Shown here in pieces: positions 1 through 64,000 of a DNA stretch of 64,000 nt. The position numbers and the translations under genes are program-made. A model generated the notes under the pieces. That model had not been told where the DNA came from, did no database searches, and saw nothing but the letters and a program-made list of their open reading frames with translations. Position 1 is the first letter of the stretch. Each line of letters begins with the position of its first letter. This DNA comes from a virus. Location of the stretch: positions 16,372 to 80,371 of the IMG/VR virus record IMGVR_UViG_3300042506_000430. One strand, 5' to 3'.

Positions 1-181
1 CAACTTTCAATCCTTCTGGCAATTCTTCTATCTCTAAATCTGATAAATTCAAATCACCTTTAACATGTAAATCATCTTCTGTGAATGGAAAACCATTTGA
101 CCATTTCCACCTAAGTGGCGTATTCCTATTATCCTTCTTTTCAAGGAAATTAAATATCTTCTTTAATGTTTCTTTTTCCAT
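1..181 (-). CDS. LRR-array protein, 3' end outside window
   Basis: Reading from the start codon at 181, the protein opens with the family N-cap (MEKETLKKIFNFLEKK), then RWKWSNG, then the capping strand FTEDDLHVKGDLNL and the first LPEGLKV repeat, after which the window ends. The start overlaps the stop of the upstream paralogue by one base (TAATG), so translation is probably coupled. The family is described here from sequence only: 20-residue leucine-rich repeats of the form LPEGLKVGGNLDLSNTKITS. Function is unknown; a binding or adaptor role is inferred from the fold type. Confidence 0.85.
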   Translation of the reverse strand, partial: MEKETLKKIFNFLEKKDNRNTPLRWKWSNGFPFTEDDLHVKGDLNLSDLEIEELPEGLKV

Positions 182-645
182 TATCTATATATATATCTAT
201 TTAAAAAACTAGGCTCAACCATTTTTATTAATTCATCATCTGAAAATTTTGCTAATGGTGTTCCACCAATAAACAAATTTTGCCCAACTTTCAATCCTTT
301 TGGTAATGATGCTATTTCAGAGTAGGATAAATCCAAATCAACCCCAACTTCTAATCCTTCTGGCATAGAAGTTATTCTTGTGTTTGATAAATCTAAATGT
401 CTCCCAACTTTCAATCCTTTTGGTAATGATTTAATATCAGAAAATTGTAAATACAAGTCACCTTCAACATATAAATTATCTGGCAATGTTTCTATCCCTG
501 AATCTGAAAAATCCAAATCACCTTTAATATGCAAATCATCTTCTGTTAATGGTTCACCACTTGACCATTTCCATAATAATGGTGCTCTTATTTCATCATT
601 CTTTTCAAGAAATTTAAATATCTTCTTTAATGTTTCTTTTTCCAT
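181..645 (-). CDS. LRR-array protein (4 repeats)
   Basis: This 154-residue paralogue has an N-cap at about residues 1-45 (MEKETLKKIFKFLEKNDE, LLWKWSSGEPLTEDDL). Four repeats follow (LPDNL, LPKGL, MPEGL, LPKGL), then the C-cap LAKFSDDELIKMVEP near residue 140. The second and third repeats keep the family pattern of leucines plus an N/S-T turn. It starts 3 bases after the stop of the virion-type gene 649-1071 and shares one base with the next paralogue. There is no signal peptide or membrane segment, so it is probably cytosolic or virion-associated. Its C-terminal tail (SFLNRYIYR) departs from the usual PGFIKG ending. Function unknown. Confidence 0.88.
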   Translation of the reverse strand: MEKETLKKIFKFLEKNDEIRAPLLWKWSSGEPLTEDDLHIKGDLDFSDSGIETLPDNLYVEGDLYLQFSDIKSLPKGLKVGRHLDLSNTRITSMPEGLEVGVDLDLSYSEIASLPKGLKVGQNLFIGGTPLAKFSDDELIKMVEPSFLNRYIYR

Positions 646-648
646 TAT

Positions 649-1071
649 CTATCCTTTCTTCCACTTTCCACCCAATTTCTTATACCTTTTTGCCGCAGCA
701 CCATTACAATATGCGCTTGGGCATACTTTATACCTAGACCTTGCCCAACTCAAACATTGACTCCATAACTTGGGATTTGTTGGTTTATTCTTTTTTTCCT
801 TTGCTTCTGTTATGTTCTGGCTATCCCTATTTTCAAATTCATTCATCATAAAATCAAAAACTTGATCCAAGTTTTCTTTTGCAACTGTCACATGGTCATC
901 AGCCCAATCATGGCCATTGGTCAACAATTCATTAATTTCATCAGGTTGAAATTCAAGCAATAATTCACATTGTCTTTTAATTTGTTTTAAGTTTCCAAAA
1001 AACATATAATTTTCTGTTGCTTGCTCATTTATTGCATTCTTAACAATTTTTTTAATTACTGGATGTATCAT
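649..1071 (-). CDS. Conserved phage virion-type protein
   Basis: This 140-residue protein has two parts. Residues 20-80 are helical and acidic (YMFFGNLKQIKRQCELL, HDWADDHVTVAKENLDQV). A basic C-terminal module (WSQCLSWARSRYKVCPSAYC, then NGAAAKRYKKLGGKW) is of a kind that recurs at the ends of head or structural proteins of many phages. I recognise the module (DUF5872-like) but not a function. It sits inside the left LRR array, with LRR genes on both sides. A TATTTATAATAA element lies 10 bases before its start. It could be virion-borne or DNA-binding; this is inference. Confidence 0.75.
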   Translation of the reverse strand: MIHPVIKKIVKNAINEQATENYMFFGNLKQIKRQCELLLEFQPDEINELLTNGHDWADDHVTVAKENLDQVFDFMMNEFENRDSQNITEAKEKKNKPTNPKLWSQCLSWARSRYKVCPSAYCNGAAAKRYKKLGGKWKKG

Positions 1072-1093
1072 ATCTTATTTTTTATTATAAATA
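1072..1093 (-). promoter_or_regulatory. AT-rich element before 649-1071 gene
   Basis: TATTTATAATAA (read on the minus strand, 1093-1082) lies 10 bases upstream of the start at 1071. The plus strand reads TTATTATAAATA here, the same word found before several operon heads. The rest of the 1072-1210 gap holds two short direct repeats (TGTGGTTA twice) and no gene that I can see. Confidence 0.3.
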
Positions 1094-1210
1094 TCATTAT
1101 TCTTTATTTTGATTATGGCTCTCATATTTTGATTTTAAGGGACTTTTTGTTTTAGCCTATTACTATGTCATCTTTATTAAAATCTGCTGTTGTGGTTAAA
1201 TTGTATGTGG

Positions 1211-1750
1211 TTATATCCTAATTATTCTACCTATACGCCCAGGTTTAACCATTTCTCTTAATTCAGCATCTGAAAATTTGTCTAAACTATCTCCAACACT
1301 CACGGCTAAATATCCATTAACTTCCAATCCTTTTGGTAATCTTTTTATTGGTGTATCCATTATTGATAACCAAAGGTCAATTACTAGCCCTTCTGGTAAT
1401 GAAGTTATTTTTGTATTATGCAAATACAAAGAAGCACCAATTTTAATATCATTTGGTATGTTTTTTATAATTGAATGCGATAACTCCAGAGAACCATCAA
1501 CTTTTAACCCTTTTGGTAATTCTTCTATTTTTGAAAATCTAGTAATCATTCTACCTTTAACTTCCAAATTATCTGGTAATGATTTTAAAGTTGAATCTGT
1601 TAAATCTAAATCACCATTAACAATTAAATCTTCTTTTGTTAGGGGATCACCAAGTTTTAATTTCCAAATAAAGGTATCTCTATCTTTATGTTTTTTGTTT
1701 TCTTTCTTTTCAAGGAAATCAAATATATTTTTTATTGCTTCTTTTTCCAT
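1211..1750 (-). CDS. LRR-array protein (5 repeats)
   Basis: This 179-residue paralogue carries the MEKEAIKNIFDFLEKKENKK N-cap and five repeats (LPDNLEV, LPKGLKV, IPNDIKI, LPEGLVI, LPKGLEV). Its C-cap is LDKFSDAELREMVKPG, ending GRIGRIIRI. The third repeat is degenerate (IPNDIKI), which also occurs in 3780-4319. The N-cap coding DNA (1681-1763) matches that of the next paralogue upstream (2289-2371) over 83 bases with one mismatch, a sign of recent duplication or conversion. The start shares one base with the upstream stop. A 139-base gap follows it. Function unknown. Confidence 0.88.
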   Translation of the reverse strand: MEKEAIKNIFDFLEKKENKKHKDRDTFIWKLKLGDPLTKEDLIVNGDLDLTDSTLKSLPDNLEVKGRMITRFSKIEELPKGLKVDGSLELSHSIIKNIPNDIKIGASLYLHNTKITSLPEGLVIDLWLSIMDTPIKRLPKGLEVNGYLAVSVGDSLDKFSDAELREMVKPGRIGRIIRI

Positions 1751-2358
1751 TATCTAATTATTTGCTCCTTTATAAATCCAGGTTTAACCATATTTCTTAA
1801 TTCTTCATCAGAAAATTTTACTAATGGTGATCCACTTATAATTAAAATCCCCCTAACTTTCAACCCTTTTGGTAATGATGTTAAACTTGTGCAATTTTCT
1901 AAATACAAATCACGGCCAACTTCCAATCCTTCTGGCAAGGATGTTAAACTTGTGCAATTTTCTAAATCTAAATTATGCGCAACTTTCAATCCTTTTGGTA
2001 AAGATATTAAATTTGTGGAATTTTCTAAATATAAAGACGCTCCAAGTTCTAATCCTCTTGGCAGTGAAATTAAATCTTCACAACCTTCTAAATCTAAACG
2101 ACCCCCAACTTTTAAGTTATCAGGTAATGATTTAATAGATGAATAATTTAAAATCAAATAACCACCAACTTTCAACCCATCTGGTAATGAGGTTATTTTT
2201 GAATATGATAAATCCAAATTACCTTTTACATTTAACTCTTCTTCTGTTATTGGTTCATCAAATTTTAATTTCCAAATAATGCTATCCCTATCTTTATGTT
2301 TTTTATTTTCTTTCTTTTCAAGGAAATCAAATATATTTTTTATTGCTTCTTTTTCCAT
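1750..2358 (-). CDS. LRR-array protein (6 repeats)
   Basis: This 202-residue paralogue has six repeats. Four consecutive ones use the longer 21-residue form with an asparagine-cysteine turn (ENCTSLTSLPEGLEV and similar) instead of the NTKIT turn. These stacked near-copies suggest internal repeat duplication. The N-cap is MEKEAIKNIFDFLEKKENKK and the C-cap is LVKFSDEELRNMVKPGFIK. Both junctions to neighbours are TAATG one-base overlaps. Function unknown. Confidence 0.88.
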   Translation of the reverse strand: MEKEAIKNIFDFLEKKENKKHKDRDSIIWKLKFDEPITEEELNVKGNLDLSYSKITSLPDGLKVGGYLILNYSSIKSLPDNLKVGGRLDLEGCEDLISLPRGLELGASLYLENSTNLISLPKGLKVAHNLDLENCTSLTSLPEGLEVGRDLYLENCTSLTSLPKGLKVRGILIISGSPLVKFSDEELRNMVKPGFIKEQIIR

Positions 2359-2837
2359 TATCTAATTATTTTACCATTTATAAACCCATCTGGTTCAACC
2401 ATTTCTCTTATTTTTTCATCTGAAAGTTTTGCTAATGGAGTTTTTACAATATGTAAATTACGTTCAACTTTTAAACCTTTTGATAATGTTTCTATATCTG
2501 AATATGTTAAATCTAAATCGCGACCAACATATAAATCACCTGGCAAGGATTTGAAACTTGTCCATTCAAAATTCAAATCACCCTCAACAAATAATTTTTC
2601 TGGGAATGTTTTTAAACTTGAGAACCGAAAATCAGCATTTCCTATAACTTTTAACCCTTTTGGTAAATGTTGTATATTTATGCCAGATATATCCAAATCG
2701 CCTCTAACAATTAAATCTTCTTTTGTTAATGGTTCATTAAACATAAATTTCCACCTTAAAGTTCCTTTGTTTTTATGTTTTTTATTGTCTTCTTTTTCAA
2801 GAAAATCAAGTATATTTTTTAGTGTTTCTTTTTCCAT
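2358..2837 (-). CDS. LRR-array protein (4 repeats, divergent)
   Basis: This 159-residue paralogue has four repeats that are less regular than in its neighbours (LPKGLKV, FPEKLFV, LPGDLYV, LSKGLKV), with aromatic residues on the variable face (DFRFSSLKTF, FEWTSFKS). The caps are standard (MEKETLKNILDFLEKEDNKK; LAKLSDEKIREMVEPDGFI). Both ends use the TAATG overlap. Divergent variable positions with conserved caps and leucines are what changing binding specificity would look like, but this is inference. Confidence 0.87.
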   Translation of the reverse strand: MEKETLKNILDFLEKEDNKKHKNKGTLRWKFMFNEPLTKEDLIVRGDLDISGINIQHLPKGLKVIGNADFRFSSLKTFPEKLFVEGDLNFEWTSFKSLPGDLYVGRDLDLTYSDIETLSKGLKVERNLHIVKTPLAKLSDEKIREMVEPDGFINGKIIR

Positions 2838-2919
2838 TATCTAATTATATTTCCTTTAAATGAACCATTATTTAAATTTTTATTTCTTCTTATTTCAGCA
2901 TCTGTATATTTTTTGGCAA
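2823..2919. repeat. 97-bp near-identical block, copy 1
   Basis: The junction between two LRR genes and the C-cap coding end of 2837-3307 match 3293-3389 at an offset of 470 bases with two mismatches (2898 and 2918). This is either a recent tandem duplication or gene conversion. Confidence 0.85.
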
Positions 2920-3307
2920 GGAAGGATTCTCCTATATATAAATTACCACCAACATATAAATTTTTTGGGATTTCTTCTATATCTGAATGTCTAAAATACA
3001 AATCACCCCCAACATATAAATTGTCTGGTAATGATTCTATATTTGTATGGGATAAGTTAAAACTATCCTTAACATATAACCCTTCTGGTAATGAGTTTAT
3101 TTCTGATCCCAACAACCACAATTTACCTTCAACTCTCATCCCATTAGGTAATGAGGTTATAGTTGTAAATTCCAAATTTAAATTGCCTTTTATATTTAAA
3201 TCCTCTTTTGTTAGTTCATTATTTACCCATTTCCATAAAAATGGTGTTTTGATATCATCATTTTCTTCAAGGAAATCAAATATTCTTTTTAATGTTTCTT
3301 TTTCCAT
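2837..3307 (-). CDS. LRR-array protein (4 repeats)
   Basis: This 156-residue paralogue has the MEKETLKRIFDFLEENDD N-cap and four repeats (LPNGMRV, LPEGLYV, LPDNLYV, IPKNLYV). Its C-cap is of an unusual type (AKKYTDAEIRRNKNLNNG, then SFKGNIIR) shared only with the next upstream paralogue. The C-terminal DNA is almost identical between the two (see the repeat at 2823-2919). Junctions are one-base TAATG overlaps. Function unknown. Confidence 0.88.
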   Translation of the reverse strand: MEKETLKRIFDFLEENDDIKTPFLWKWVNNELTKEDLNIKGNLNLEFTTITSLPNGMRVEGKLWLLGSEINSLPEGLYVKDSFNLSHTNIESLPDNLYVGGDLYFRHSDIEEIPKNLYVGGNLYIGESFLAKKYTDAEIRRNKNLNNGSFKGNIIR

Positions 3308-3389
3308 TATCTAATTATATTTCCTTTAAATGAACCATTATTTAAATTTTTATTTCTTCTTATTTCACCATCTGTATATTTTTTGGCGA
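3293..3389. repeat. 97-bp near-identical block, copy 2
   Basis: Partner of 2823-2919, with two mismatches. It spans the C-cap end of 3307-3780 and the junction with the next gene. Confidence 0.85.
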
Positions 3390-3780
3390 GGGGGGTCTCT
3401 TCTATATCTAATTCACCACCAACGTATAAATTTTTTGGTATTTCTCCTATATTTGAATATTTAAACCATAAATCACCCCCAACATATAAATTGTCTGGTA
3501 ATGATTCAATATATGTATGTGATACATCCAAACTACCCTTAACATATAGCCCTTCTGGTAATGTTTTTATTGCTGATGCAAATAATGACAAATCACCTTG
3601 AACTCTCAATCCCTCTGGTAATGAGGTTATTGCTGAATGATTTAAAATTAAATCCCCATCAAAATTTAATTCATCTTCTGTAAATGGGTGATTAATTTTT
3701 ACTTTATAAGCAAAAGGTTTTGGTCTATTTTCCTCTTTCTCAAGGAATTCAATTATTTTTTTTAATGTTTCTATTTCCAT
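3307..3780 (-). CDS. LRR-array protein (4 repeats)
   Basis: This 157-residue paralogue has four repeats (LPEGLRV, LPEGLYV, LPDNLYV, IPKNLYV) and the AKKYTDGEIRRNKNLNNG C-cap, which it shares with 2837-3307. Its N-cap is different (MEIETLKKIIEFLEKEENRP with FAYKVKINHPFTEDEL) and resembles that of 4323-4736. It thus looks like a chimera of two cap types. Junctions are TAATG-type on both sides. Function unknown. Confidence 0.88.
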   Translation of the reverse strand: MEIETLKKIIEFLEKEENRPKPFAYKVKINHPFTEDELNFDGDLILNHSAITSLPEGLRVQGDLSLFASAIKTLPEGLYVKGSLDVSHTYIESLPDNLYVGGDLWFKYSNIGEIPKNLYVGGELDIEETPLAKKYTDGEIRRNKNLNNGSFKGNIIR

Positions 3781-4319
3781 TACTCTCTTAATATTCCTTT
3801 TATAAATCCAGGTTTAACCATTTCTTTTAATTCAGCATTAGAAAATTTGGATAAACTATCATTACTATTTAAAACTAAATAACCCTTAATTATCAATCCT
3901 TTTGGTAATGAAGTTATTTTTGTTTTCTGCAAATACAAAGAACCACCAATTTCAATATCATCAGGTATATTTTTTATTTTTGAGTTCCTTAAATTCAAAT
4001 TACCACCAACTTTCAATCCTTTTGGTAGTGATTCTATATTTGAACTTGCTAAAGATAAATAATCCCCAACTTCTAACCCTTCTGGTAATGAGACTATTGC
4101 CGAACAACCCATTAAATTAACCCAACCCTTAACTCTTAATCCTTCTGGTAATGATGTTACTTTTGTATATGATAATTCCAAATTACCATTAATATTTAAT
4201 TCATCATATGTTAATTCATTAAATATAACCTTCCATTTAAAACTACCTTTATCTCGGGGCATTTTATTTTCTTCCTTTTCAAGAAAATCAAGTATTTTTT
4301 TAAATGTTTTATTTTCCAT
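3780..4319 (-). CDS. LRR-array protein (5 repeats)
   Basis: This 179-residue paralogue has five repeats (LPEGLRV, LPEGLEV, LPKGLKV, IPDDIEI, LPKGLII). It shares the degenerate IPDDI repeat followed by a KTKITSLP strand with 1211-1750, so these two probably derive from one ancestor. The caps are MENKTFKKILDFLEKEENK and LSKFSNAELKEMVKPGFIKG. The start is 3 bases after the stop of the upstream gene and the stop overlaps the next start by one base. Function unknown. Confidence 0.87.
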   Translation of the reverse strand: MENKTFKKILDFLEKEENKMPRDKGSFKWKVIFNELTYDELNINGNLELSYTKVTSLPEGLRVKGWVNLMGCSAIVSLPEGLEVGDYLSLASSNIESLPKGLKVGGNLNLRNSKIKNIPDDIEIGGSLYLQKTKITSLPKGLIIKGYLVLNSNDSLSKFSNAELKEMVKPGFIKGILRE

Positions 4320-4322
4320 TAT

Positions 4323-4736
4323 CTACATATTTCCTATTATTTCTCCTATATAACCATTTGGCTTTATCATATTCAATAATTCATTGTCTGAAATTTCTGT
4401 AAATTTTGTTCTGTAAATATATAAACTACCCCCAACTTTCAAGTCTTTTGGTAATGAGGTTAAACCCCAACACCCAGCTAACCATAAATTACCCTCAACT
4501 TCCAATCCTTCTGGTAATGTTTTTATATCTGAGTCTGTTAAATCTAAAACACGCCCAACTTTCAATCCTTCTGGTAATGAAGTTATTTTAAAATTTGATA
4601 AATCCAAATTACCTTCAATATTTAAATCTTTTTCTGTTAAGGGTTCATTATTTTTTACTTTATAAGCAAAAGGTTTTTTTCTATTTTCTTCCTTCTCAAG
4701 GAATTCAAGTATTCTTTTTAATGTTTCTTCTTTCAC
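4323..4736 (-). CDS. LRR-array protein (3 repeats, short)
   Basis: At 137 residues this is the shortest complete paralogue of the left array, with only three repeats (LPEGLKV, LPEGLEV, LPKDLKV). The variable face includes two tryptophans (LWLAGCWGLTS). The N-cap is MKEETLKRILEFLEKEENRK with FAYKVKNNEPLTEKDL. The C-cap is FTEISDNELLNMIKPNGYIG. It overlaps the upstream gene by four bases (ATGA), a second kind of coupling. Function unknown. Confidence 0.86.
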   Translation of the reverse strand: MKEETLKRILEFLEKEENRKKPFAYKVKNNEPLTEKDLNIEGNLDLSNFKITSLPEGLKVGRVLDLTDSDIKTLPEGLEVEGNLWLAGCWGLTSLPKDLKVGGSLYIYRTKFTEISDNELLNMIKPNGYIGEIIGNM

Positions 4737-5329
4737 AATCTTGATATTTTTTCTTTTATAAATCCAGGATAAACCATTTCTCTTAATTGTCCATCTGTGT
4801 ATTTTCGTAATGGGGTATTTTCTATATACAATACCCCCCTAACTTCTAACCCTTTTGGTAATGATGTTATTTTTGTATCTTTTAAATTCAAATATTTACC
4901 AACTTTTAATCCTTCTGGTAGTGAAATTAAATCTTTGCAAGAATATAAATCCAAAAAACCCCTAATTTTTAAGTCATTAGGTAATGAACTAATGGATGTA
5001 TAATTTAAATGCAAATTACCACCAACTTTCAATCCTTTTGGTAATGAGGTTATTTTTGAATATGCTAAAAACAAATGCTTCCCAACTTTTAATCCTTCTG
5101 GTAATGATTGTATTCTTGAAAATGTTAAAATTAAGTCCCCCTCAACTTTTAACCCTTCTGGTAATGATTCTATACTTGAGTACATTAAATTCAAATCATC
5201 TTTTATATTTAATTCATCTTTTGTTAATGGTTTATTAAATAATAACTTCCACCTTAAATTATTTTTAGGTATTACCCCTTCCTTTTCTTCAAGAAAATCA
5301 AGTATTTTTTCAATTGTTTCTTTTTCCAT
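4733..5329 (-). CDS. LRR-array protein (6 repeats)
   Basis: This 198-residue paralogue has six regular repeats (LPEGLKV twice, LPKGLKV, LPNDLKI, LPEGLKV, LPKGLEV). One long-turn repeat (YSCKDLISLPEGLKV) sits in fifth position. The caps are MEKETIEKILDFLEEKEG and LRKYTDGQLREMVYPGFIKE. The start shares one base with the upstream stop and the stop overlaps the next gene by four bases. Function unknown. Confidence 0.88.
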   Translation of the reverse strand: MEKETIEKILDFLEEKEGVIPKNNLRWKLLFNKPLTKDELNIKDDLNLMYSSIESLPEGLKVEGDLILTFSRIQSLPEGLKVGKHLFLAYSKITSLPKGLKVGGNLHLNYTSISSLPNDLKIRGFLDLYSCKDLISLPEGLKVGKYLNLKDTKITSLPKGLEVRGVLYIENTPLRKYTDGQLREMVYPGFIKEKISRL

Positions 5330-6036
5330 TATCTAACTATTTTTCCTTTTATAAATCCAGGTTGAATCATCTTTCTTAATCTATAATTACTAATTTCATC
5401 TAAATGGGAAAGATTCAACATTATAGATCCATAAACTTTCAATCCTTTTGGTAATGAGGTTAAATCTGTTAGTCTTAAATCCAAATCACCACCAACTTTT
5501 AAACCTTCTGGCAATGATTGTATATTTTTACAACCAAATAACACCAAATCTTTCCTAACTTCAAGTCCTTCTGGTAATGAAGTTATTTTTGTATTATTTA
5601 AAACTAAATGCCCTCCAACTTTCAATCCTTCTGGTAATGAAGTTATTTTTGTATTATTTAAATACAAATCCCTACCAACTTTCAATCCTTTTGGTAGCAA
5701 GGTTATATCTGTATTAGATGAAAACAAATCACCACCAACTTCCAATCCTTCAGGTAATGATGTTATTTTTGTTGAACCTAAATTCAAATTACCCCCAACT
5801 TTCAAACCTTCTGGCAATGAGGTTATTTTTGATCTTCTTAAATCGAAATTACCACCAACTTTCAAACCTTCTGGTAATGAGGTTATTGTTGTTTCATAAA
5901 ACCACAAATTACCTATAACATCTAAATCTTCTTTGGTTATTGGCTCATTATTTAATATTTTCCATTTAAATGGTGCTCTATGTTCTCCTTTCTCTTCAAG
6001 GAATTCAAATATTCTTTTTAATGTTTCTTTTTCCAT
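5329..6036 (-). CDS. LRR-array protein (8 repeats), first gene of left array
   Basis: This 235-residue paralogue is the promoter-proximal gene of the left array and the longest there, with eight very regular repeats. Several near-identical tandem units (NNTKITSLPEGLKVGG) show recent internal expansion. The N-cap is MEKETLKRIFEFLEEKGEHR with FKWKILNNEPITKEDL. It lies 7 bases downstream of the fibre-like gene 6044-7546, with a TATAAATA box 15 bases before its start inside the end of that gene. Late co-expression with tail genes is therefore likely (inference). Function unknown. Confidence 0.9.
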   Translation of the reverse strand: MEKETLKRIFEFLEEKGEHRAPFKWKILNNEPITKEDLDVIGNLWFYETTITSLPEGLKVGGNFDLRRSKITSLPEGLKVGGNLNLGSTKITSLPEGLEVGGDLFSSNTDITLLPKGLKVGRDLYLNNTKITSLPEGLKVGGHLVLNNTKITSLPEGLEVRKDLVLFGCKNIQSLPEGLKVGGDLDLRLTDLTSLPKGLKVYGSIMLNLSHLDEISNYRLRKMIQPGFIKGKIVR

Positions 6037-6043
6037 TATCTAA

Positions 6044-7546
6044 TTATTTTTTATTTATAATAAAAAAGTGCAATTGTTTTTTATAAGTGGTAATCTCCCC
6101 AGCAATTTGAACCTTTAAATCAACAAAATATTTATTTGGTATTTTATCTCTTGTGTCAAAATTAAAATAATATTCATTTGGTGTTCTGTTAAATTCTGTC
6201 CAATCTTGAACTTGAACTTGGGTTTCCCCCTCCTTAACATAAACACGATAAAATCCTTTAATGTTTGTTAATAATTCACTTGTGCTATATGCTTTTTTAA
6301 TTATAACCCCAATCTTTCTAACATCAGTATTGAGTATTTTTTCCCCTTGCATAATGTTATAGAAATCAAAATTATATGTTTCACTTTCTGTTGTCTTTGT
6401 TCCAGTTTTAATTCGATTATTTACATCATATAATACAAATTCATTTTCAACATTGGGTAATGTAATTCCATTTAAGGTCATCCCACTCCAAACATCAGTA
6501 AATACCATAGGTGCTGTATATCCACTAAATACATTTGGTACAGATACCTCATACACACCCTTGGTAATTAATTTTGTTGATAAGTTTGTGCAACCAGTAA
6601 CAACATTCCCATCATTGTCAAATATATTAACAATTGGATTGTTATCCAAATTTGAATACGAATCTTCATCTGTTACATAAAGATATAATTTATTTACCCT
6701 ATTCTTAACAAAATTATTTCTATCATCCTTAATCAAATCATCATAAGTTGTTAATAGATAAGGTTCATAAAATGTCTGGGTGTGCCTTGAAAAAAAGCCA
6801 ACAGAATAGCTTTCCGTTAACCCTGTTGCATTTTCATAAGATGGGGTATAAGCAATGCCCCAACCAGAATAAGATGTGGTAGAACCGCTTAAAATGGCGT
6901 TTATTTCATTTGTCATGTTAAATGAAACATCTTCATTACCAAATTCAAAATGTTTGGTATCAAGAATGGTCAATCCGCTATAATTAACATTTCCCGTATT
7001 TTTATTGTTATAAATACCAGGTTCAGTCCATCCGCTTAATGTTTGAGCATTATACCAATTTGAGGGGGTTGATGCAAATGAATTATCATTCTTTATAACT
7101 AGGGGATATTTCGCCCCTGACCCTGAATTTAAGTTTTTTGAATAATCTGTATAATCATAACCTACACCTTCATCCCAATTTTGAACATACCCTGTGCTAC
7201 CACTACTCAATGGAATTCTAAATAAAACCAAATCAAAGGAAGATGCTCTACGTTTTTGATTTGGCATTTTCCCATTTAATAAGGATTCATCAAAAGATGC
7301 TGAATTTTTTAAGACTAATGTATGTGTGACACTTGACAATGAACCGCTAAAAATGATATCATCATTAACTTTATCAATTAGAGGTTCTAAATCTAAATCA
7401 AAAATTAGCCTTGTTGGTCCATATGCTGGGATTAAGTAATCTGTTGCACCATAAGTTAATTCAATAACAGGGTTTCTACCTGTATTTATTTTTGAATTTG
7501 CAATTAAAGTGTTGTTTCTATTAAAATAAGATAGATGAATTGACAT
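6044..7546 (-). CDS. Virion protein, fibre- or baseplate-like
   Basis: This 500-residue protein is rich in beta strands, Asn, Ser and Thr, with no signal peptide. The N-terminal half has repeated strand patterns with aromatic and Gly/Ser turns (YSGWGIAYTPSYENATG, VGFFSRHTQTFYEPYL). The C-terminal half looks like repeated immunoglobulin-like beta domains (VNKLYLYVTDEDSYSNLD, KGFYRVYVKEGETQVQVQDW). It follows the baseplate spike gene by 18 bases and precedes the LRR array by 7. A tail fibre or baseplate accessory role fits position and composition, but I cannot name a family. Confidence 0.65.
   Translation of the reverse strand: MSIHLSYFNRNNTLIANSKINTGRNPVIELTYGATDYLIPAYGPTRLIFDLDLEPLIDKVNDDIIFSGSLSSVTHTLVLKNSASFDESLLNGKMPNQKRRASSFDLVLFRIPLSSGSTGYVQNWDEGVGYDYTDYSKNLNSGSGAKYPLVIKNDNSFASTPSNWYNAQTLSGWTEPGIYNNKNTGNVNYSGLTILDTKHFEFGNEDVSFNMTNEINAILSGSTTSYSGWGIAYTPSYENATGLTESYSVGFFSRHTQTFYEPYLLTTYDDLIKDDRNNFVKNRVNKLYLYVTDEDSYSNLDNNPIVNIFDNDGNVVTGCTNLSTKLITKGVYEVSVPNVFSGYTAPMVFTDVWSGMTLNGITLPNVENEFVLYDVNNRIKTGTKTTESETYNFDFYNIMQGEKILNTDVRKIGVIIKKAYSTSELLTNIKGFYRVYVKEGETQVQVQDWTEFNRTPNEYYFNFDTRDKIPNKYFVDLKVQIAGEITTYKKQLHFFIINKK
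6052..6063 (-). promoter_or_regulatory. T4-late-like promoter candidate at head of left LRR array
   Basis: The minus strand reads TTATTATAAATA here, containing the exact T4 late -10 box TATAAATA. The box ends 15 bases before the LRR gene start at 6036 and sits inside the 3' end of the fibre-like gene. The same 12-mer precedes 11689 and 59765. Confidence 0.4.
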
Positions 7547-7564
7547 TTTTTTATTTAATAAATA

Positions 7565-14280: not shown

Positions 14281-14281
14281 G

Positions 14282-20808: not shown

Positions 20809-20817
20809 TTTTTATAT

Positions 20818-22409: not shown

Positions 22410-22419
22410 TTATAGAAAT

Positions 22420-23538: not shown

Positions 23539-23541
23539 TTT

Positions 23542-25199: not shown

Positions 25200-25200
25200 A

Positions 25201-37954: not shown

Positions 37955-37958
37955 AATT

Positions 37959-39210: not shown

Positions 39211-39250
39211 AAATATTCACTAAATACTATTTATTATAATAATAATATAA

Positions 39251-50358: not shown

Positions 50359-50392
50359 ATTTATATATTTTAGAGTTAAACAATTCACTTTG

Positions 50393-57503: not shown

Positions 57504-57538
57504 AAAAACCCCCAACCTTAATTAGATTGGGGGTTTTT
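57504..57538. terminator. Bidirectional terminator
   Basis: A 12-bp stem (AAAAACCCCCAA and its complement) with an 11-base loop and T/A runs on both sides. It serves the polymerase gene from the left and the small virion gene 57541-57873 from the right. Its core resembles the hairpin at 50905-50931. Confidence 0.92.
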
Positions 57539-57540
57539 AA

Positions 57541-57873: not shown

Positions 57874-57917
57874 GTTTTTTATTACAAATATAACTTAATT
57901 TAATTTAAAAACAAATT

Positions 57918-59036
57918 TTATATTACATAAATTTGTCTTGGGAAAGCGTTAAATTTTAATTGTTTATTTAAGTTTTCTGCAATAAGTGCTTCTTTTTCCA
58001 TTTGTTTTTCAGGTTTTAATCTTTCCAATCTTGCCAATAATTCTTCAATAAGTTTTGCTTTTTCATCTTTCCCTTCAGTTATTAATGATTCATAATCTAA
58101 CTTTAACTCTGAATCAGGGACTTTTATTGCTCCACTATACTTTCCCCTAACTCTACCCAAACTCTCTTTTACGTAAGCTGTAAACCACCTTCTTACCCAA
58201 TGTTTTGCTGGTTGGTTTAACTTATCCCAAGTTAATTCACTAAATGGGACATCTGATGGTAATTTAATAATATCTGGGTTATCTTCCAAACACTTTCCAC
58301 GGCTATCACCATCCACATCATAATACCAATACCAAATTTGTTTTCCAACATATGAGGAGTAATTTCCCCAGTTAAATTTACCACCTGGTGTATTATATAT
58401 ATGAATTGCTTTTTTACCATCTGGTAATCCTGTTATTCTATAAGTTAATGAACCTCCAAGAATTCTTGTTAATATATTTGCCGATTGCATTCTGAGTAAA
58501 TAATCAAAACCTGACATCATAAAATAGGATCCTGTATTTCCCATTTGAGCAAAACCAGCGTCTGATGCACCCAATCCAATACCTCCAAATCCAAAACCAC
58601 CAGCACCACCTAAACCAAATGCACTAAATGCTTGGTTGCTATACCATAATAATTCATTCACCTCTCGGCCAGCAGGAATTTCATACAATTGTTGATTTTT
58701 TTCCAATGTAATATAATCTTTTTGCAAAACCCAAGGACCCCCAGATTGCAATCCAACAATTTTTGAATAAGCATATTCATATTGCTTTTCAAAATCCATT
58801 GTTCTTGTAATTAAAGCATTTGCAACAGATTTTTCGCTCATATTAAGATTAACCAAATTAACCCATTGGGATTCGGTTAGCCAATCAAGCATATATTGTT
58901 CATAATCTTGAACGGATAATTCCATTAAGGAATCCATCATTTCATCAGTTATCTCAACACCCCTTAATGGTGCACCAAGTAAATGACGAATTCTTGTGTA
59001 AATTTGCGTTCTTTCTGGCTCGGCTATTACTGACAT
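57918..59036 (-). CDS. Virion structural protein, neck or tail candidate
   Basis: This 372-residue protein has a helical N-terminal half (RIRHLLGAPLRGVEITDEMM, YEQYMLDWLTESQWVNLVNL) and a Gly-rich loop (GLGGAGGFGFGGIGLGASDA). A beta part with the marker QQLYEIPAGREVNELLW resembles conserved structural proteins of large phages. The C-terminus has a charged helix. Head-neck or tail-tube attachment is possible, but I cannot name the family. Confidence 0.6.
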   Translation of the reverse strand: MSVIAEPERTQIYTRIRHLLGAPLRGVEITDEMMDSLMELSVQDYEQYMLDWLTESQWVNLVNLNMSEKSVANALITRTMDFEKQYEYAYSKIVGLQSGGPWVLQKDYITLEKNQQLYEIPAGREVNELLWYSNQAFSAFGLGGAGGFGFGGIGLGASDAGFAQMGNTGSYFMMSGFDYLLRMQSANILTRILGGSLTYRITGLPDGKKAIHIYNTPGGKFNWGNYSSYVGKQIWYWYYDVDGDSRGKCLEDNPDIIKLPSDVPFSELTWDKLNQPAKHWVRRWFTAYVKESLGRVRGKYSGAIKVPDSELKLDYESLITEGKDEKAKLIEELLARLERLKPEKQMEKEALIAENLNKQLKFNAFPRQIYVI

Positions 59037-59063: not shown

Positions 59064-59765
59064 TTATTCTTTTGGCTCATTATTATTTGCATTATCATAT
59101 AATTCAAGAACAAAATCCCAATTTATATAATTCCAGAAGTTATGTATATACTCATCTCTTTTGTTTTGGTATTTGAGATAATAGGCATGTTCCCATAAAT
59201 CCAATCCCAATATTGGAAATCCACCACCTTTAATGACATTCATAAGGGGATTATCTTGGTTTGGGGTGGTGATAATTTTTAATGTATTATTTTTTGTTGC
59301 AACAAGCCAGACCCATCCTGATCCAAAATGGCTTTTTGCCTTTTCTTCAAATTTTGTTTTAAATGAATTAATTGAGCCAAAACTTTTTATTATTTTATCT
59401 TTTAATTCTTTTGGGATATTCTTTTTGGTTGGTGATAACATATTCCAAAACAAAGCGTGATTAAATGCTCCACCTGCATTATTTCTAATTGTTTTGTTGA
59501 ATTTGCTTATATTTGTTATTATCTGTTTTAAATCATAATTTGATTTATTATCTTTTAATGCTTTATTCAATTTATCAACATAACCTTTATAATGTTTATT
59601 ATAATGAATATCCATTGTTTTCTCATCAATAAAAGGTTTTAATGAGGCATACGAATAAGGGAGTTTTTCAATTCCAACCTTTTTCATTTCATTAAGTAAA
59701 AAATTAACATTATCTTTGTATATCCTTGATATTATTTCTTCTTTGATTGTTTCAAGTATTTTCAT
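59064..59765 (-). CDS. sodA: Mn-type superoxide dismutase
   Basis: This 233-residue enzyme turns superoxide into oxygen and peroxide. Metal ligands are His54 (MDIHYNKHY), His103 (GGAFNHALFW), Asp189 and His193 (GLDLWEHAYYLKYQ). Gly-Gly before FNH and the Gln in TPNQDNPLM are of the Mn type; iron forms usually differ at both. The 35-residue N-terminal extension has no signal peptide, so it is cytosolic. It is divergent from the right LRR array with a shared short intergenic region and TATAAATA 9 bases before its start. Confidence 0.95.
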   Translation of the reverse strand: MKILETIKEEIISRIYKDNVNFLLNEMKKVGIEKLPYSYASLKPFIDEKTMDIHYNKHYKGYVDKLNKALKDNKSNYDLKQIITNISKFNKTIRNNAGGAFNHALFWNMLSPTKKNIPKELKDKIIKSFGSINSFKTKFEEKAKSHFGSGWVWLVATKNNTLKIITTPNQDNPLMNVIKGGGFPILGLDLWEHAYYLKYQNKRDEYIHNFWNYINWDFVLELYDNANNNEPKE

Positions 59766-59774
59766 AAATTATTA

Positions 59775-59786
59775 TATTTATAATAA
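59775..59786. promoter_or_regulatory. Shared AT-rich element between sod and right LRR array
   Basis: The 32-base gap between the two divergent starts contains TATTTAT-A-ATAAATA, a 7-base inverted repeat. The minus strand reads TTATTATAAATA with the TATAAATA box 9 bases before the sod start. The plus strand reads TATTTATAATAA, 11 bases before the LRR start. Confidence 0.45.
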
Positions 59787-59797
59787 ATATTTGTATA

Positions 59798-60283
59798 ATG
59801 GATAATACCACACTAAAAAACATACTAAACTTTTTGGTAACTAATGAAGGTAAAAAATTACCAGAAAAATGGGTTCAATTTAAATTGGAAAATAATATAC
59901 CATTAACAAAAGAAGAATTGAAAGTTGGGGGTAATTTGGATTTATATGGCTCAAAAATAGAATCATTACCAGAAGAGTTATATGTTGCAGGAACATTGGT
60001 TTTATCAAATTGTAAAAATTTAACATCTTTACCAAAAAGATTAAAAGTTGGGGGGGATTTGCATTTAGACTATACAAATATAACATCATTACCAGAAGGA
60101 TTATATGTTGGTAGGCATTTATATTTAATAATGTGCAAAAATTTAACATCATTACCAAAAGGATTGAAAGTTGATGGTGGAGTAAATATAAAACTCACAA
60201 ATTTAATTAAATACACTAAAGAGGAATTAAGAGAAATGATTGAGCCAGATGGTTATATAACAGGAAAAATAATTAGAAGTTAA
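59798..60283 (+). CDS. LRR-array protein (4 repeats), first gene of right array
   Basis: This 161-residue paralogue has the N-cap MDNTTLKNILNFLVTNEGKK with WVQFKLENNIPLTKEEL. It has four repeats (LPEELYV, LPKRLKV, LPEGLYV, LPKGLKV), two of them the long Cys-turn form (SNCKNLTSLPKRL). The C-cap is LIKYTKEELREMIEPDGYIT. It shares the LVTNEGKKLP N-cap with 62116-62781 only. The stop and next start overlap by one base (TAATG). Function unknown. Confidence 0.9.
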   Translation: MDNTTLKNILNFLVTNEGKKLPEKWVQFKLENNIPLTKEELKVGGNLDLYGSKIESLPEELYVAGTLVLSNCKNLTSLPKRLKVGGDLHLDYTNITSLPEGLYVGRHLYLIMCKNLTSLPKGLKVDGGVNIKLTNLIKYTKEELREMIEPDGYITGKIIRS

Positions 60284-60930
60284 TGGAAAAAGAAACACTA
60301 AAAAACATATTTAAATTCATTGAAGAAAAGGGTGAGCATAGAACACCATTTTTATGGAAATGGAAAAATAATATACCATTAACAGAAGAAGACTTAAATG
60401 TTAATGGTAATTTGGATTTAAGGCATTCAAATATAACCTCATTACCAGAAGGATTAAAAGTTTGGGGTAATTTGATTTTAGAGTATTCAAAAATAGCCTC
60501 ATTACCAGAAGGATTGAAAGTTAAAGGTAGTTTGATTTTAAGTGCTACCAAAATAACATCATTACCAAAAGGATTGGAAGTTGGTGGTAGTATATTTTTG
60601 AATGAGAGCCTCATAAAGGCATTACCAGAAGGATTGAAAGTTAAAGGTAGTTTGGATTTGAGTAATACCAAAATAACATCATTACCAAATGGATTACAAG
60701 TTAAAGGTCAGTTGAGTTTGTTTGGTACAAAAATAAAATCATTACCAGAAGGATTGGAAGTTGGTGGTTGTATATATTTGTCTTTCAGCACCATAAAGAC
60801 ATTACCAAAAGGATTAAAAGTTGGAGGTACTTTGCAAATAGGTCAGACTCGATTAACAAGATATTCAGATGAGGAATTAATGAAAATGATTGAGCCAGGA
60901 TTTATAACAAATAGTATAATAAGATTATAA
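60283..60930 (+). CDS. LRR-array protein (7 repeats)
   Basis: This 215-residue paralogue has an N-cap of the left-array type (MEKETLKNIFKFIEEKGEHR with FLWKWKNNIPLTEEDL), unlike its right-array neighbours, which start MDNN. It has seven regular repeats and the C-cap LTRYSDEELMKMIEPGFITN. The junctions on both sides are TAATG. It shows that the two arrays share one gene pool. Confidence 0.91.
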   Translation: MEKETLKNIFKFIEEKGEHRTPFLWKWKNNIPLTEEDLNVNGNLDLRHSNITSLPEGLKVWGNLILEYSKIASLPEGLKVKGSLILSATKITSLPKGLEVGGSIFLNESLIKALPEGLKVKGSLDLSNTKITSLPNGLQVKGQLSLFGTKIKSLPEGLEVGGCIYLSFSTIKTLPKGLKVGGTLQIGQTRLTRYSDEELMKMIEPGFITNSIIRL

Positions 60931-61050
60931 TGGATAATAACACAATAAAAAAAATATTAGATTTTCTTGAAGAAAAAGAAAACAAAAAACATTCAGAAAG
61001 AGATAATCTTGTTTGGAAATTAAGATTTGGATACCCCCTAACAAAAGAAG
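60930..61050 (+). repeat. 121-bp near-identical N-cap block, copy 1
   Basis: It matches 62774-62894 with a single mismatch (61038 against 62882), while the repeat-coding DNA that follows differs. This points to recent gene conversion or duplication limited to the N-cap. Confidence 0.92.
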
Positions 61051-61649
61051 ATTTGAATATTAAGGATACCTTGTATTTAAATAATACAAATATAACCTCA
61101 TTACCAGAAGGATTGAAAGTTGGTAAGAGTTTGGATTTAAGAGTATCAAATATAACCTCATTACCAGAACGATTGAAAGTTGGTTGGAATTTGAATTTAA
61201 ATAATACAAAAATAACCTCATTACCAGAAGGATTGAAAGTTGGTAGGAATTTGTATTTAGAAAATTGCAAAAGTTTAACCTCATTACCAGAAGGATTGGA
61301 AGTTGGGGGTGATTTGGATTTAAGTGGTTCAGGAATAGAAACATTACCAAAAGATTTGAAAGTTGAGGGCAACTTAATTTTAATAGGATCAAAAATAACC
61401 TCACTACCAGAAGGATTTAATGTTGTTGGTGTTTTGTGTCTTTATAATACAGAAATAGAATCATTACCAAAAGGATTAAAAGTTGGGGTTCAGTTGGATT
61501 TAAGGTTTACAAAAATAACCTCATTACCAAGAGGTTTGGAAGTTGGTGGTATTTTAAGAATAGACCACACAGACCTAGACAATTATTCAGATGATGATTT
61601 AAGACAAATGGTTAAACCTGGATTTATAAAAGGTGAAATATATAGGTAA
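60930..61649 (+). CDS. LRR-array protein (8 repeats)
   Basis: This 239-residue paralogue has eight repeats (LPEGLKV, LPERLKV, LPEGLKV, LPEGLEV, LPKDLKV, LPEGFNV, LPKGLKV, LPRGLEV), one of them a long Cys-turn form (ENCKSLTSLPEGL). The N-cap coding DNA (60930-61050) is identical to 62774-62894 except for one base. The C-cap is LDNYSDDDLRQMVKPGFIKG. Both junctions are TAATG. Function unknown. Confidence 0.91.
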   Translation: MDNNTIKKILDFLEEKENKKHSERDNLVWKLRFGYPLTKEDLNIKDTLYLNNTNITSLPEGLKVGKSLDLRVSNITSLPERLKVGWNLNLNNTKITSLPEGLKVGRNLYLENCKSLTSLPEGLEVGGDLDLSGSGIETLPKDLKVEGNLILIGSKITSLPEGFNVVGVLCLYNTEIESLPKGLKVGVQLDLRFTKITSLPRGLEVGGILRIDHTDLDNYSDDDLRQMVKPGFIKGEIYR

Positions 61650-62116
61650 TGGATAATAACACAATAAAAAACATATTTAAATTCCTTGAAGATGAAGGAG
61701 AACATAGAGCACCTTTTATGTGGAAATGGAAAAATAATATACCATTAACAGAAGAAGACTTAAATGTTGAAAGTGATTTGAATTTCTATAAATTAGAAAT
61801 AAAATCATTACCAAAAGGATTAAAAATCCATGGTCATTTGGGTTTATATAAAACAAATATAACTTCATTACCAAAAGGCTTGGAAGTTGGGGGCGATTTG
61901 AATTTAAATGAAACAAAAATAAAATCATTACCAAAAGGATTGAAAGTTGGTGGCAATTTATATTTAACATATTGTGGAAAATTAACTTCATTACCAGAAG
62001 GGTTAAAAGTTGGTGGTGATTTGTATATACATGCCACACCATTAACAAAATATTTAGATGATGATTTAAGACAAATGGTTAAACCTGGATTTATAAAAGG
62101 AATAATATATAGGTAA
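61649..62116 (+). CDS. LRR-array protein (4 repeats)
   Basis: This 155-residue paralogue has the N-cap MDNNTIKNIFKFLEDEGEHR with FMWKWKNNIPLTEEDL and four repeats (LPKGLKI, LPKGLEV, LPKGLKV, LPEGLKV). The C-cap LTKYLDDDLRQMVKPGFIKG is nearly the same as in 60930-61649, while the N-cap WKW part matches 60283-60930. It therefore looks like a mosaic of its two upstream neighbours. Both junctions are TAATG. Confidence 0.9.
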   Translation: MDNNTIKNIFKFLEDEGEHRAPFMWKWKNNIPLTEEDLNVESDLNFYKLEIKSLPKGLKIHGHLGLYKTNITSLPKGLEVGGDLNLNETKIKSLPKGLKVGGNLYLTYCGKLTSLPEGLKVGGDLYIHATPLTKYLDDDLRQMVKPGFIKGIIYR

Positions 62117-62781
62117 TGGATAATAACACAATAAACAAGATACTAAACTTTTTGGTAACTAATGAAGGTAAGAAATTACCAGGAACATGGATTAAATTTA
62201 AATTGGGAAATAATATACCATTAACAAAAGAAGAATTAAATGTTAAGGGTAATTTGAATTTGAGTGATTCACAAATAACCCAATTACCAGAAGGATTGAA
62301 AGTTGGGGGTGATTTGTATTTAAATAGAACAAATATTAAATCATTACCAGAAGGATTAAAGGTTGGTGGTAATTTATCATTGCTAAAATGTAAAAATTTA
62401 ACTTTATTACCAAAAGGATTAGACGTTGGGGGTTGGTTGGATTTAAGAGGAACAAATATAATCTCATTACCAAAAGATTTGCAAGTTGGGGGTGGTTTGG
62501 ATTTGGAAGGCACAAATATAAAACAACTCCCAAAAGATTTATATGTTAGTGGTAAATTGGATTTATCATTCACAAAAATAACATCACTACCAGAAGGATT
62601 ATATGTTGGCAAGAATTTATTTTTAAATAATTGTTATGATTTAAAATCATTACCAAAAGGATTGAAAGTTGGTGGTGGAGTAAATATAACTGATGCAAGT
62701 TTAACTAAATACACTGAAGAGGAATTAAGGAAAATGATTGAACCAGGATTTATAAAAGGAGATATAATAAGATATGGATAA
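62116..62781 (+). CDS. LRR-array protein (7 repeats)
   Basis: This 221-residue paralogue has the LVTNEGKKLP N-cap (with WIKFKLGNNIPLTKEEL) and seven repeats, two of the long form (LKCKNLTLLPKGLDV, NNCYDLKSLPKGL). The C-cap LTKYTEEELRKMIEPGFIKG is followed by DIIRYG. The last codons and stop (GGATAA) lie inside the start of the next gene, an 8-base overlap. Function unknown. Confidence 0.91.
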   Translation: MDNNTINKILNFLVTNEGKKLPGTWIKFKLGNNIPLTKEELNVKGNLNLSDSQITQLPEGLKVGGDLYLNRTNIKSLPEGLKVGGNLSLLKCKNLTLLPKGLDVGGWLDLRGTNIISLPKDLQVGGGLDLEGTNIKQLPKDLYVSGKLDLSFTKITSLPEGLYVGKNLFLNNCYDLKSLPKGLKVGGGVNITDASLTKYTEEELRKMIEPGFIKGDIIRYG

Positions 62782-62894
62782 TAACACAATAAAAAAAATA
62801 TTAGATTTTCTTGAAGAAAAAGAAAACAAAAAACATTCAGAAAGAGATAATCTTGTTTGGAAATTAAGATTTGGATACCCCTTAACAAAAGAAG
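62774..62894 (+). repeat. 121-bp near-identical N-cap block, copy 2
   Basis: Partner of 60930-61050 with one mismatch in 121 bases. Confidence 0.92.
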
Positions 62895-63193
62895 AGTTAA
62901 ATCAAAAAGGTAATTTGCATTTATCATTTACAAAAATTACATCCTTACCAAAAGGATTGAAAGTTGGTGGGTTTTTATATTTATTTATGTGTAAACATTT
63001 AACATCTTTACCAGAAGGATTGAAAGTTGGAGGTATTTTGAGTTTGAATCATTCAAGTATAACCTCATTGCCAAAAGGGTTAGAAGTTGGGGGTGACTTA
63101 CAGATTGAAGGTACATCCTTAACAAAATATTCAAATGAGGAATTAAGGAAAATGATTGAGCCAGGATTTATAAAAGGAGATATAATAAGATAA
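62774..63193 (+). CDS. LRR-array protein (3 repeats, short)
   Basis: This 139-residue paralogue has only three repeats (LPKGLKV, LPEGLKV, LPKGLEV) between standard caps (MDNNTIKKILDFLEEKENKK; LTKYSNEELRKMIEPGFIKG). Its first 121 bases are almost identical to those of 60930-61649 while the repeat parts differ in number and sequence. The start overlaps the upstream stop by 8 bases. A 2-base gap separates it from the next gene. Confidence 0.9.
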   Translation: MDNNTIKKILDFLEEKENKKHSERDNLVWKLRFGYPLTKEELNQKGNLHLSFTKITSLPKGLKVGGFLYLFMCKHLTSLPEGLKVGGILSLNHSSITSLPKGLEVGGDLQIEGTSLTKYSNEELRKMIEPGFIKGDIIR

Positions 63194-63195
63194 CA

Positions 63196-63738
63196 ATGGA
63201 TAATAACACACTAAAAAACATATTTAAATTCCTTAAAAATAAAGAAGGGAAAAAACATAGACAACAAGACACATTATTATGGAAGTTAATATTTAATGAG
63301 CCATTAACAAAGGAGGAATTAACTATTGATGGTGATTTGACCGTATCAAATACAATAATAACTTCATTACCAGAAGGATTAAAAGTTTCTGGTGGTTTGG
63401 ATATATCTTACACAAAAATAACCTCATTACCAAAAGATTTAAATGTTAAGGGTGATTTATATTTAAGAGATTCAAAAATAACCTCATTGCCAGAAGGTTT
63501 GAAAGTTGGTGGTAATTTAAATTTAGGTTGGACAAAAATGGCATCATTACCAGAAGGATTAAAAGTTGTGGGTGATTTGGATTTATATTGGACAGACATA
63601 ACCTCATTACCAAAAGGTTTGAAAGTTGGTGGTGATTTGGATATAAGAGAAACAGAATTAATAAGATATTCAGATGATGAATTAAGAGAAATGATTAAAC
63701 CAGGTTTTATAGAAGGAGATATAATAAGATATGGATAA
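63196..63738 (+). CDS. LRR-array protein (5 repeats)
   Basis: This 180-residue paralogue has the N-cap MDNNTLKNIFKFLKNKEGKK with LLWKLIFNEPLTKEEL and five repeats (LPEGLKV, LPKDLNV, LPEGLKV twice, LPKGLKV). Its variable face is rich in Trp (LGWTKMASLP, LYWTDITSLP). The C-cap LIRYSDDELREMIKPGFIEG ends DIIRYG, with an 8-base overlap with the next gene. Function unknown. Confidence 0.91.
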   Translation: MDNNTLKNIFKFLKNKEGKKHRQQDTLLWKLIFNEPLTKEELTIDGDLTVSNTIITSLPEGLKVSGGLDISYTKITSLPKDLNVKGDLYLRDSKITSLPEGLKVGGNLNLGWTKMASLPEGLKVVGDLDLYWTDITSLPKGLKVGGDLDIRETELIRYSDDELREMIKPGFIEGDIIRYG

Positions 63739-64000
63739 TAGCACATTGAAAAACATATTTAAATTCCTTGAAGATAAGGAGGGATATAATGCCCCATTCA
63801 TATGGAAATGGAAAAATAATGAACCCTTAACAGAAGAAGATTTGAATGTTAAAGGTGATTTGGATTTATCAGAAAATGAAGAAATAGAATCATTACCAGA
63901 AGGATTAAAAATTGAAGGTAATTTACTTTTATATGATTCCTCTGTTGAATTACCAAAAGGATTAGAGGTTGGTGGTAATTTACATATGACTAATAGTATA
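63731..64000 (+). CDS. LRR-array protein, 3' end outside window
   Basis: From the ATG at 63731 the frame is open to the window end. It gives the N-cap MDNSTLKNIFKFLEDKEGYN with FIWKWKNNEPLTEEDL and at least three repeats (LPEGLKI, a shortened ELPKGLEV, and the next strand). The start overlaps the upstream stop by 8 bases. It shows that the array continues beyond 64000. Confidence 0.88.
   Translation, partial: MDNSTLKNIFKFLEDKEGYNAPFIWKWKNNEPLTEEDLNVKGDLDLSENEEIESLPEGLKIEGNLLLYDSSVELPKGLEVGGNLHMTNSI

Follow-up and report, generated by a model that had tools for sequence, protein, structure and literature searches.

Two arrays of genes for small leucine-rich repeat (LRR) proteins lie at the ends of a 64,000-base stretch of virus DNA, positions 16372-80371 of the 80,371-base record IMGVR_UViG_3300042506_000430 (G000), which is called the window below. 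In lists of open reading frames (ORFs), positions 2-6036 carry 11 minus-strand LRR ORFs, of which that at 2-181 is cut by the window end, and positions 59798-64000 carry 8 plus-strand ones, where the window end cuts the final ORF. The initial annotation had described 19 paralogues of one LRR family (11 left, 8 right, two cut), and the ORF lists bear this out. It had also held that both arrays run past the window and that the family extends further. Both points are confirmed by a 112,963-base contig (G002) that contains the G000 record at 99.993% identity (6 differences): it has 2 further genes beyond the left cut gene, 2 on the right and two further arrays, with 33 family genes in its four arrays. 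A 270,075-base relative (G008) has 41 family genes, including one 112-residue remnant without repeats. All products are small (112-275 residues), single-domain LRR proteins, and fragments are few, with no cap match in only 2 of the 74 family ORFs of G002 and G008. LRR genes make up 12,894 of the 80,371 bases of G000. The species is represented by several near-identical contigs, and a megablast search with window positions 20000-40000 found no near-neighbour phages in the annotated collection.

In the left array, the cut gene (2-181; 215 residues at full length in G000 and G002) is joined on the minus strand by genes for proteins of 154 (181-645), 179 (1211-1750), 202 (1750-2358), 159 (2358-2837), 156 (2837-3307), 157 (3307-3780), 179 (3780-4319), 137 (4323-4736, GTG start), 198 (4733-5329) and 235 residues (5329-6036, 8 repeats). 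The array is mixed, as an unrelated minus-strand ORF at 649-1071 sits among the LRR genes. This ORF has a weak DUF5872 match below the cut-off, it is preceded by a promoter-like octamer, ATATTTAT, at 1087-1094 (minus), and an 83% identical ORF adjoins the homologous array in G008. Flanking the array is p6044 (6044-7546, minus, 500 residues), a gene without a family match which we presume to be a tail gene; its product is 81-100% identical across relatives that have a capped-LRR array beside it. The octamer recurs at 7558-7565 (minus), ahead of p6044 and the left array.

The right array, on the plus strand, encodes proteins of 161 (59798-60283), 215 (60283-60930), 239 (60930-61649, 8 repeats), 155 (61649-62116), 221 (62116-62781), 139 (62774-63193) and 180 residues (63196-63738), and ends in the cut gene at 63731-64000 (150 residues in G002). 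The octamer stands ahead of it at 59774-59781 (plus). A divergent copy at 59783-59790 (minus) precedes a gene for an Fe/Mn superoxide dismutase (SOD; 59064-59765, minus), which is divergent from the array and is followed by the conserved gene of the head-tail adaptor Ad2 (phrog_211; 57918-59036, minus). Starts and stops of neighbouring LRR ORFs mostly overlap or abut, and an array therefore looks like one operon.

Among 96 distinct family proteins, repeat starts were 20 residues apart in 282 of 372 intervals and 21 apart in 72, which agrees with the earlier description of a shared N-cap, repeats of 20-21 residues and a C-cap. Repeat number was said to differ between genes, and it does: it ranges from 2 to 10 among paralogues (one remnant has none) and sometimes varies between orthologues, as in the product of 4733-5329 (G000_21104), whose orthologue in the relative G004 (G004_109451) is 20 residues shorter. 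AlphaFold2 models were computed from 30 family sequences for 60930-61646 (pLDDT 94.8, pTM 0.86) and from 28 for the 156-residue product of 2837-3307 (pLDDT 92.8, pTM 0.82). The predicted layout is an N-terminal helix of fair to good confidence (block means ~79-90), a solenoid of 20-residue units with two short strands per repeat, and a helical C-cap. The structure prediction that had been proposed as a check gave a confident LRR solenoid with the variable positions on its presumed concave face.

The proteins belong to the LRR superfamily, since they have both its LxL..(N/T/S).L/I core repeats and its arc-shaped solenoid. The best structural match in the PDB, and the closest solved structure, was a polar flagellar motor LRR protein (8z5u_0; Z 23.7, root-mean-square deviation 1.9 over 175 residues, 30% identity, E 1.6e-34 with profile A2). 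It is a bacterial motor part, however, the N-cap falls outside the sequence alignment, and the motor role is uninformative on the phage proteins. Next came Leptospira proteins, SHOC2, IpaH and many other LRR domains, with Z of 17.1 and below. Three window LRR proteins were scanned against family models: Pfam LRR models matched two of them below the cut-off and the third not at all, and phrog_21719 was the best PHROG match for two (E 3.3e-07 and 4.7e-06), although this 554-position profile was matched over only ~80-116 residues. Two described LRR classes fit only in part, and the family falls in neither. PMC2946307 gives LxxLxVxxNxLxxLP(D/E)LPxx, of 20-22 residues, for the 'bacterial' class of YopM and IpaH, and a nested 21-residue unit, LxxLxLxxNxLxxLDLxx, with strands on both faces for the IRREKO class. 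The former agrees in length and in the first LP, but the phage repeats have GLxV for the second LP and T/S for N; the latter agrees in the two short strands per repeat, but the phage units are mostly of 20 residues and lack LDL.

Across the 282 twenty-residue repeats of these 96 proteins, entropy reached 3.1-3.7 bits at repeat positions 10, 12, 14, 15 and 17. Of the eight core positions, seven did not exceed 0.73 and position 16 (S/T) stood at 1.44; convex positions were intermediate, at 1.2-2.4. The variable positions lie in and after the inner strand, presumably on the concave face of the LRR arc, an assignment made solely from LRR geometry and predicted strands. The claim that face residues differ between genes while the leucines are kept is therefore in line with the entropy peak on this presumed face and the low values in the core.

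For the analysis of selection we used 250 distinct complete genes (245 proteins) from 8 contigs and 79 loci, some of them overlapping. Identity to the best hit was bimodal: below 70% for 79 genes, 70-84% for 11 and at least 85% for 160. These genes formed 56 orthologue clusters, and one pair per cluster was taken; 12 clusters with too few or saturated differences were dropped, leaving 44 pairs with a median ratio of nonsynonymous to synonymous rates (dN/dS) of 0.53. Pooled values were 0.11 (0.08-0.15) for the core, 0.44 (0.35-0.55) for the convex side and 0.75 (0.58-0.93) for the concave face, with a concave/convex ratio of 1.24-2.19 among orthologues, whereas flanking genes gave 0.04-0.17 (four genes, 55 pairs). 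The LRR proteins are under real constraint in their core, evolve several-fold faster than their neighbours and change fastest on the face within the repeat. Two earlier expectations did not hold. Positive selection on the face, for which a test had been proposed, was not shown in general, as the interval stays below 1; selection there is weakened rather than positive. The caps, which had been described as kept, are not especially conserved between orthologues (dN/dS 0.67 for the N-cap and 0.71 for the C-cap). Codon use in the first 15 residues compared with the rest, a check for constraint at the DNA level, was mixed, with I and T more uniform and L and F less.

Array content differs between close relatives. 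The SOD-side locus holds 10 LRR genes in G002, 7 in G004 and 2 in G009, whose polymerases are 96.5% (G004) and 99.1% (G009) identical to that of G002. The same locus has 8 genes in G006, 11 in G007 and 3 in G005; G006 equals G008 over 9,305 bases here and the two were therefore counted once. Six of the 8 G006 genes have orthologues in G007, in a different order when compared from coordinates. The initial annotation had considered that relatives might carry the same paralogues unvaried; instead, their gene sets differ. Of 11 contigs found by their polymerase, 9 have the family, and in the two without it the polymerase is only 58% identical. In the wider clade, the SOD gene adjoins the adaptor gene in 73 of 80 viral loci (L063-L142) and seems to be a standard gene of this phage clade, but LRR genes stand beside the pair in only 7 of the same 80. 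Since the SOD neighbour is common and LRR genes are rare, the arrays look like a lineage-specific addition. The family was present in 25 of 156 loci fetched by the polymerase, adaptor or tail gene, one of them (L161) with a weak partial match, where flanks were limited and several loci came from one contig. At ~14240-14700 of locus L145 a one-base difference splits an LRR gene into two ORFs, either a natural frameshift or an assembly error. A host origin was considered and not taken up: a pattern scan of genome contigs, whose outcome depends on short patterns, yielded 1 locus among 274 pattern matches, in a Bacteroides metagenome-assembled genome, with LRR proteins that lack the caps. In that locus (L279, 5422-8475), 20-residue repeats like those of the phage proteins are fused to different sequence in two adjacent genes.

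To judge from sequence divergence, exchange between lineages is often more recent for LRR members than for most of the genes around them. In the comparison of G006 with G007, the synonymous divergence (dS) of six LRR genes common to both is 0-0.064, compared with 0.41 for the polymerase and 0.46 for the Ad2 adaptor; in other contig pairs the LRR values were also lower than those of the neighbours, but less extreme. Inside a single genome, how alike two N-caps are is only a weak guide to how alike the C-caps are (Mantel r 0.29, p 0.018 for 30 of 33 genes in G002; r 0.16, p 0.11 for 36 of 41 in G008). Gene 43234 of G008 is chimeric, with an N-cap 89% identical to that of 41644 and a C-cap 91% identical to that of 42650. 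In the window, the genes at 60930 and 62774 share an identical stretch of 108 N-cap bases while their C-caps are only 55% identical, and those at 2837 and 3307 are 85% identical in the C-cap and 44% in the N-cap. Among 8 G004 genes, no identical shared blocks of at least 32 bp were found.

Very close contigs give a less uniform picture. All 14 differences between locus L143 and G002 fall within two short stretches of two LRR genes, one of which matches a paralogue ~25 kb away; this is consistent with gene conversion, and short-read assembly error may also account for it. Five of the 6 differences between G000 and G002 lie in LRR genes. That near-identical contigs always differ in LRR genes is not general, as the fraction of differences within them was 1/1 in L145, 1/1 in L009, 2/10 in L011, 0/6 in L150 and 0/1 in L257, and several near-identical loci had no differences at all. 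In the more diverged contig L252, whose overlap takes in just 887 bp of LRR sequence, it was 0/229. Models for reverse transcriptase (RVT_1, PF00078), tyrosine recombinase (PF00589) and serine recombinase (PF00239) each matched 0 of 6 contigs, which are possibly incomplete and in which other recombinase families were left unsearched. The absence of these enzyme families from the 6 contigs speaks against a diversity-generating retroelement and site-specific shuffling, and homologous recombination is therefore the likely route; a RecA-like match below the cut-off occurred in 4 of the 6. Gain and loss of genes, together with reshuffling and recombination, account for most of the diversity.

In G002 and G008, 63 of 490 genes have the octamer ATATTTAT ~32-10 bases upstream, where shuffles predict 2.6, but the octamer was discovered on the same data as scored, and the counts carry small biases, as the observed window was 22 bases against 20 in shuffles that keep base composition only. 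Coding-strand hits cluster sharply between -25 and -21 (41 of them), with none for the reverse complement. Its total count in the window is not above chance (35 versus 29.4), so that what stands out is only where it lies, and on which strand, with respect to genes. Genes preceded by it include those of the prohead protease, a putative scaffold, the tail sheath, p6044, the adaptor and SOD. It stands directly ahead of 12 of 14 array heads, or ahead of the gene just upstream of them, compared with 101 of 420 non-LRR genes (Fisher p 3e-6, which overstates independence since some heads are orthologous), and ahead of 0 of 60 internal LRR genes. At the SOD site this leader is conserved between relatives while the first LRR gene differs. 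With the motif at most heads and at no internal LRR gene, and the leader kept, an array appears to be one operon-like unit with a conserved leader and exchangeable members. A second promoter-like element, the TTTG/TAnnTTTG pair, precedes 17 of 490 genes in the same two genomes (0.8 from shuffles), and the two classes may separate late from early genes.

G002 encodes a major head protein (phrog_138), a prohead protease (phrog_207) and a tail sheath (phrog_23) of families that we take to be T4-type, and on this gene content the virus is a T4-like myovirus. The best of the head-protein relatives listed included proteins from phages of Flavobacterium and Rhodothermus, but also of Microcystis. The TTTG/TAnnTTTG pair is the Bacteroidota promoter consensus. 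From the Flavobacterium and Rhodothermus relatives and the 17 pairs, a Bacteroidota host seems likely, though the Microcystis phage is also among the relatives.

From the predicted fold and the pattern of variation, one may reasonably infer that the LRR set is a binding repertoire. In the reading that we prefer, with a probability of about one half, the arrays would be co-transcribed, recombining operons of small LRR binders, adaptors or inhibitors, that are used against differing hosts and are expressed late. Each protein would hold one partner via its concave face, as LRR proteins usually do, and most partners would be host defence or regulatory proteins that differ between host strains. The phage would thereby keep a changeable stock of soluble adaptors or inhibitors, whose members would be reassorted through homologous recombination, both among paralogues and among phages that infect the same cell, and which would be expressed late from the motif that also stands ahead of head and tail genes.

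Several observations weigh against this reading. The pooled dN/dS of the concave face does not reach 1, evolution of the caps is as fast as that of the face, and the 8 of 44 pairs with dN/dS above 1 rest on 1-8 synonymous changes each; moreover, the position classes were set after viewing the entropies, on partly the same proteins. Low divergence between G006 and G007 extends to the SOD gene beside the array (dS 0.066), and for this reason a block including SOD may have moved. Some LRR pairs match the divergence of their neighbours (G002 100819 has dS 0.256 to G004 and 0.227 to G009). The octamer also precedes an ATP-dependent protease gene and the polymerase operon, which weakens the proposed late timing. 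Finally, co-expression with head and tail genes fits badly with early counter-defence, unless the proteins travel in the virion.

It is possible, though doubtful, that the proteins do travel in this way, as internal head proteins. The N-terminal helix would be a capsid-targeting peptide, and the proteins would be packed, injected with the DNA and block defences before phage gene expression, by analogy with T4 IPI. The idea of head entry and injection comes from the promoter-like motif common to arrays and head and tail genes, and from a three-gene array that lies directly behind the prohead protease gene (phrog_207) and is followed, after one small ORF, by the genes of an acidic putative scaffold and the major head protein. 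An N-terminal pattern with constant Met1-to-Phe12 spacing in 239 of the 245 distinct proteins also agrees with it. Against this, L-x-E, which we assume to be the cleavage consensus, occurs at the expected place in only 110 of those 239, and the fairly to well modelled helix may simply cap the solenoid. Some other G008 proteins have N-termini that, to our eye, resemble a short helix ending in [ILV]NE, and [ILVF]NE is commonest at residues 10-19 of G008 proteins (9 and 9 hits per 5-residue bin), but this class numbers only 19 of the 264 non-LRR proteins, with the motif ahead of 5. PMC9026906 gives 10-19-residue propeptides for T4 and lists IPI as a restriction inhibitor. Small G008 genes with N-termini of the [ILV]NE type, for example at 204002-205014 and 212038-212589, may encode capsid-targeting peptides of their own.

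Somewhat less probable is a largely neutral amplification, in which duplication and recombination build weakly constrained arrays that are dispensable as a repertoire. The high dN/dS everywhere but in the core and the large swings in copy number, down to 2 genes, would be expected from it. It does not sit well with the strong constraint on the core, the few broken family ORFs or the share of the G000 record that the arrays occupy, and a face that outpaces the convex side is not readily predicted by relaxed duplication alone.

We regard as unlikely a combination of binding and packing, in which recombining LRR binders would be packed via the shared N-terminal peptide and injected as a counter-defence mixture adjustable to the host strain. 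Its logic would resemble that of VLRs or antibodies, with gene arrays exchanged between phages. Quite improbable are late-made structural or surface modules on the tail or head that would bind host surface glycans or proteins, in sets tuned to host range. One array type does follow the presumed tail gene with the same motif, and the C-terminal domain of a phage depolymerase matches one window protein below threshold (18.6 bits against a cut-off of 25). We also count in favour a highly variable tail-module ORF of a Vibrio phage, likened in PMC10945359 to LRR proteins at an HHpred probability of only 10%. However, parts for trimerisation, a shaft or attachment are missing from the model, it is hard to see where a virion would accommodate dozens of different monomers, and in the three scanned LRR proteins no tail-fibre family scored above the cut-off. 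Inter-phage competition, in which the proteins would bind factors of rival phages (superinfection exclusion) and be exchanged among competitors, agrees with the recent sharing of members between lineages but is very unlikely, being less useful if expressed late.

Several other features of the window were noted. Two ORFs at 57527-57898 (plus) and 57541-57873 (minus) overlap almost wholly, and the minus one is 81-100% conserved in relatives. A 1114-residue outer-membrane beta-barrel protein with a carboxypeptidase-regulatory-like domain (PF25183, PF13620) is encoded at 50941-54285 (minus); this phage-encoded protein is ~87% identical in G005, G006 and G008. A gene for S-adenosylmethionine synthetase with all three domains lies at 49222-50388 (minus), and a big block at ~15.9-47.9 kb includes several glycosyltransferases, nucleotide-sugar epimerases and an FkbM methyltransferase.

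Viral expansions of binding repeats include the ankyrin or FNIP families of poxviruses and giant viruses, whose hosts are eukaryotes and which are partly tied to ubiquitin ligases. Two 'Leucine-rich repeat' proteins of uncultured Caudovirales, A0A6J7X691 and A0A6J7X9U5, have the same repeat type by Foldseek (E 6.6e-12 and 47% identity for the first) and are known here as single database entries. An LRR protein of Edwardsiella phage Edno5 has 20-residue repeats and 48% identity over 154 residues, but its N- and C-ends differ, its record has integrase and repressor genes, and its annotated neighbours form no array. The YopM, IpaH and SspH effectors likewise have 20-22-residue repeats with LP and a similar arc, whereas the phage proteins have no second LP, T/S for N and no effector domain. 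T4 IPI-IPIII are small head-packed proteins, of which IPI counters a restriction enzyme; for the phage LRR proteins head packing is hypothetical. PMC7824862 describes a lineage-specific expansion of zinc-ribbon paralogues in Bacillus phage G, ~35 copies, which are another kind of protein and were suggested to be specific transcription factors or structural DNA-binding proteins. Related LRR proteins in other phages and a paralogue expansion in a phage are thus already on record, but the literature searched, which mostly did not cover subscription papers, gave no account of phages with arrays of LRR genes or with turnover of this kind.

Phage counter-defence genes are usually found singly, whereas in these phages an entire class of candidate binders can be catalogued from sequence. 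Natural variants, recombinants and array-free sites in relatives allow array content to be compared with host range. If the proteins do bind, their concave faces would offer an existing stock of small soluble binders, and the proteins that they bind could bring to light unknown defence or host-control proteins in Bacteroidota. Our analysis suggests that a phage multigene family can outpace the rest of the genome in turnover without a reverse transcriptase or a recognised site-specific recombinase.

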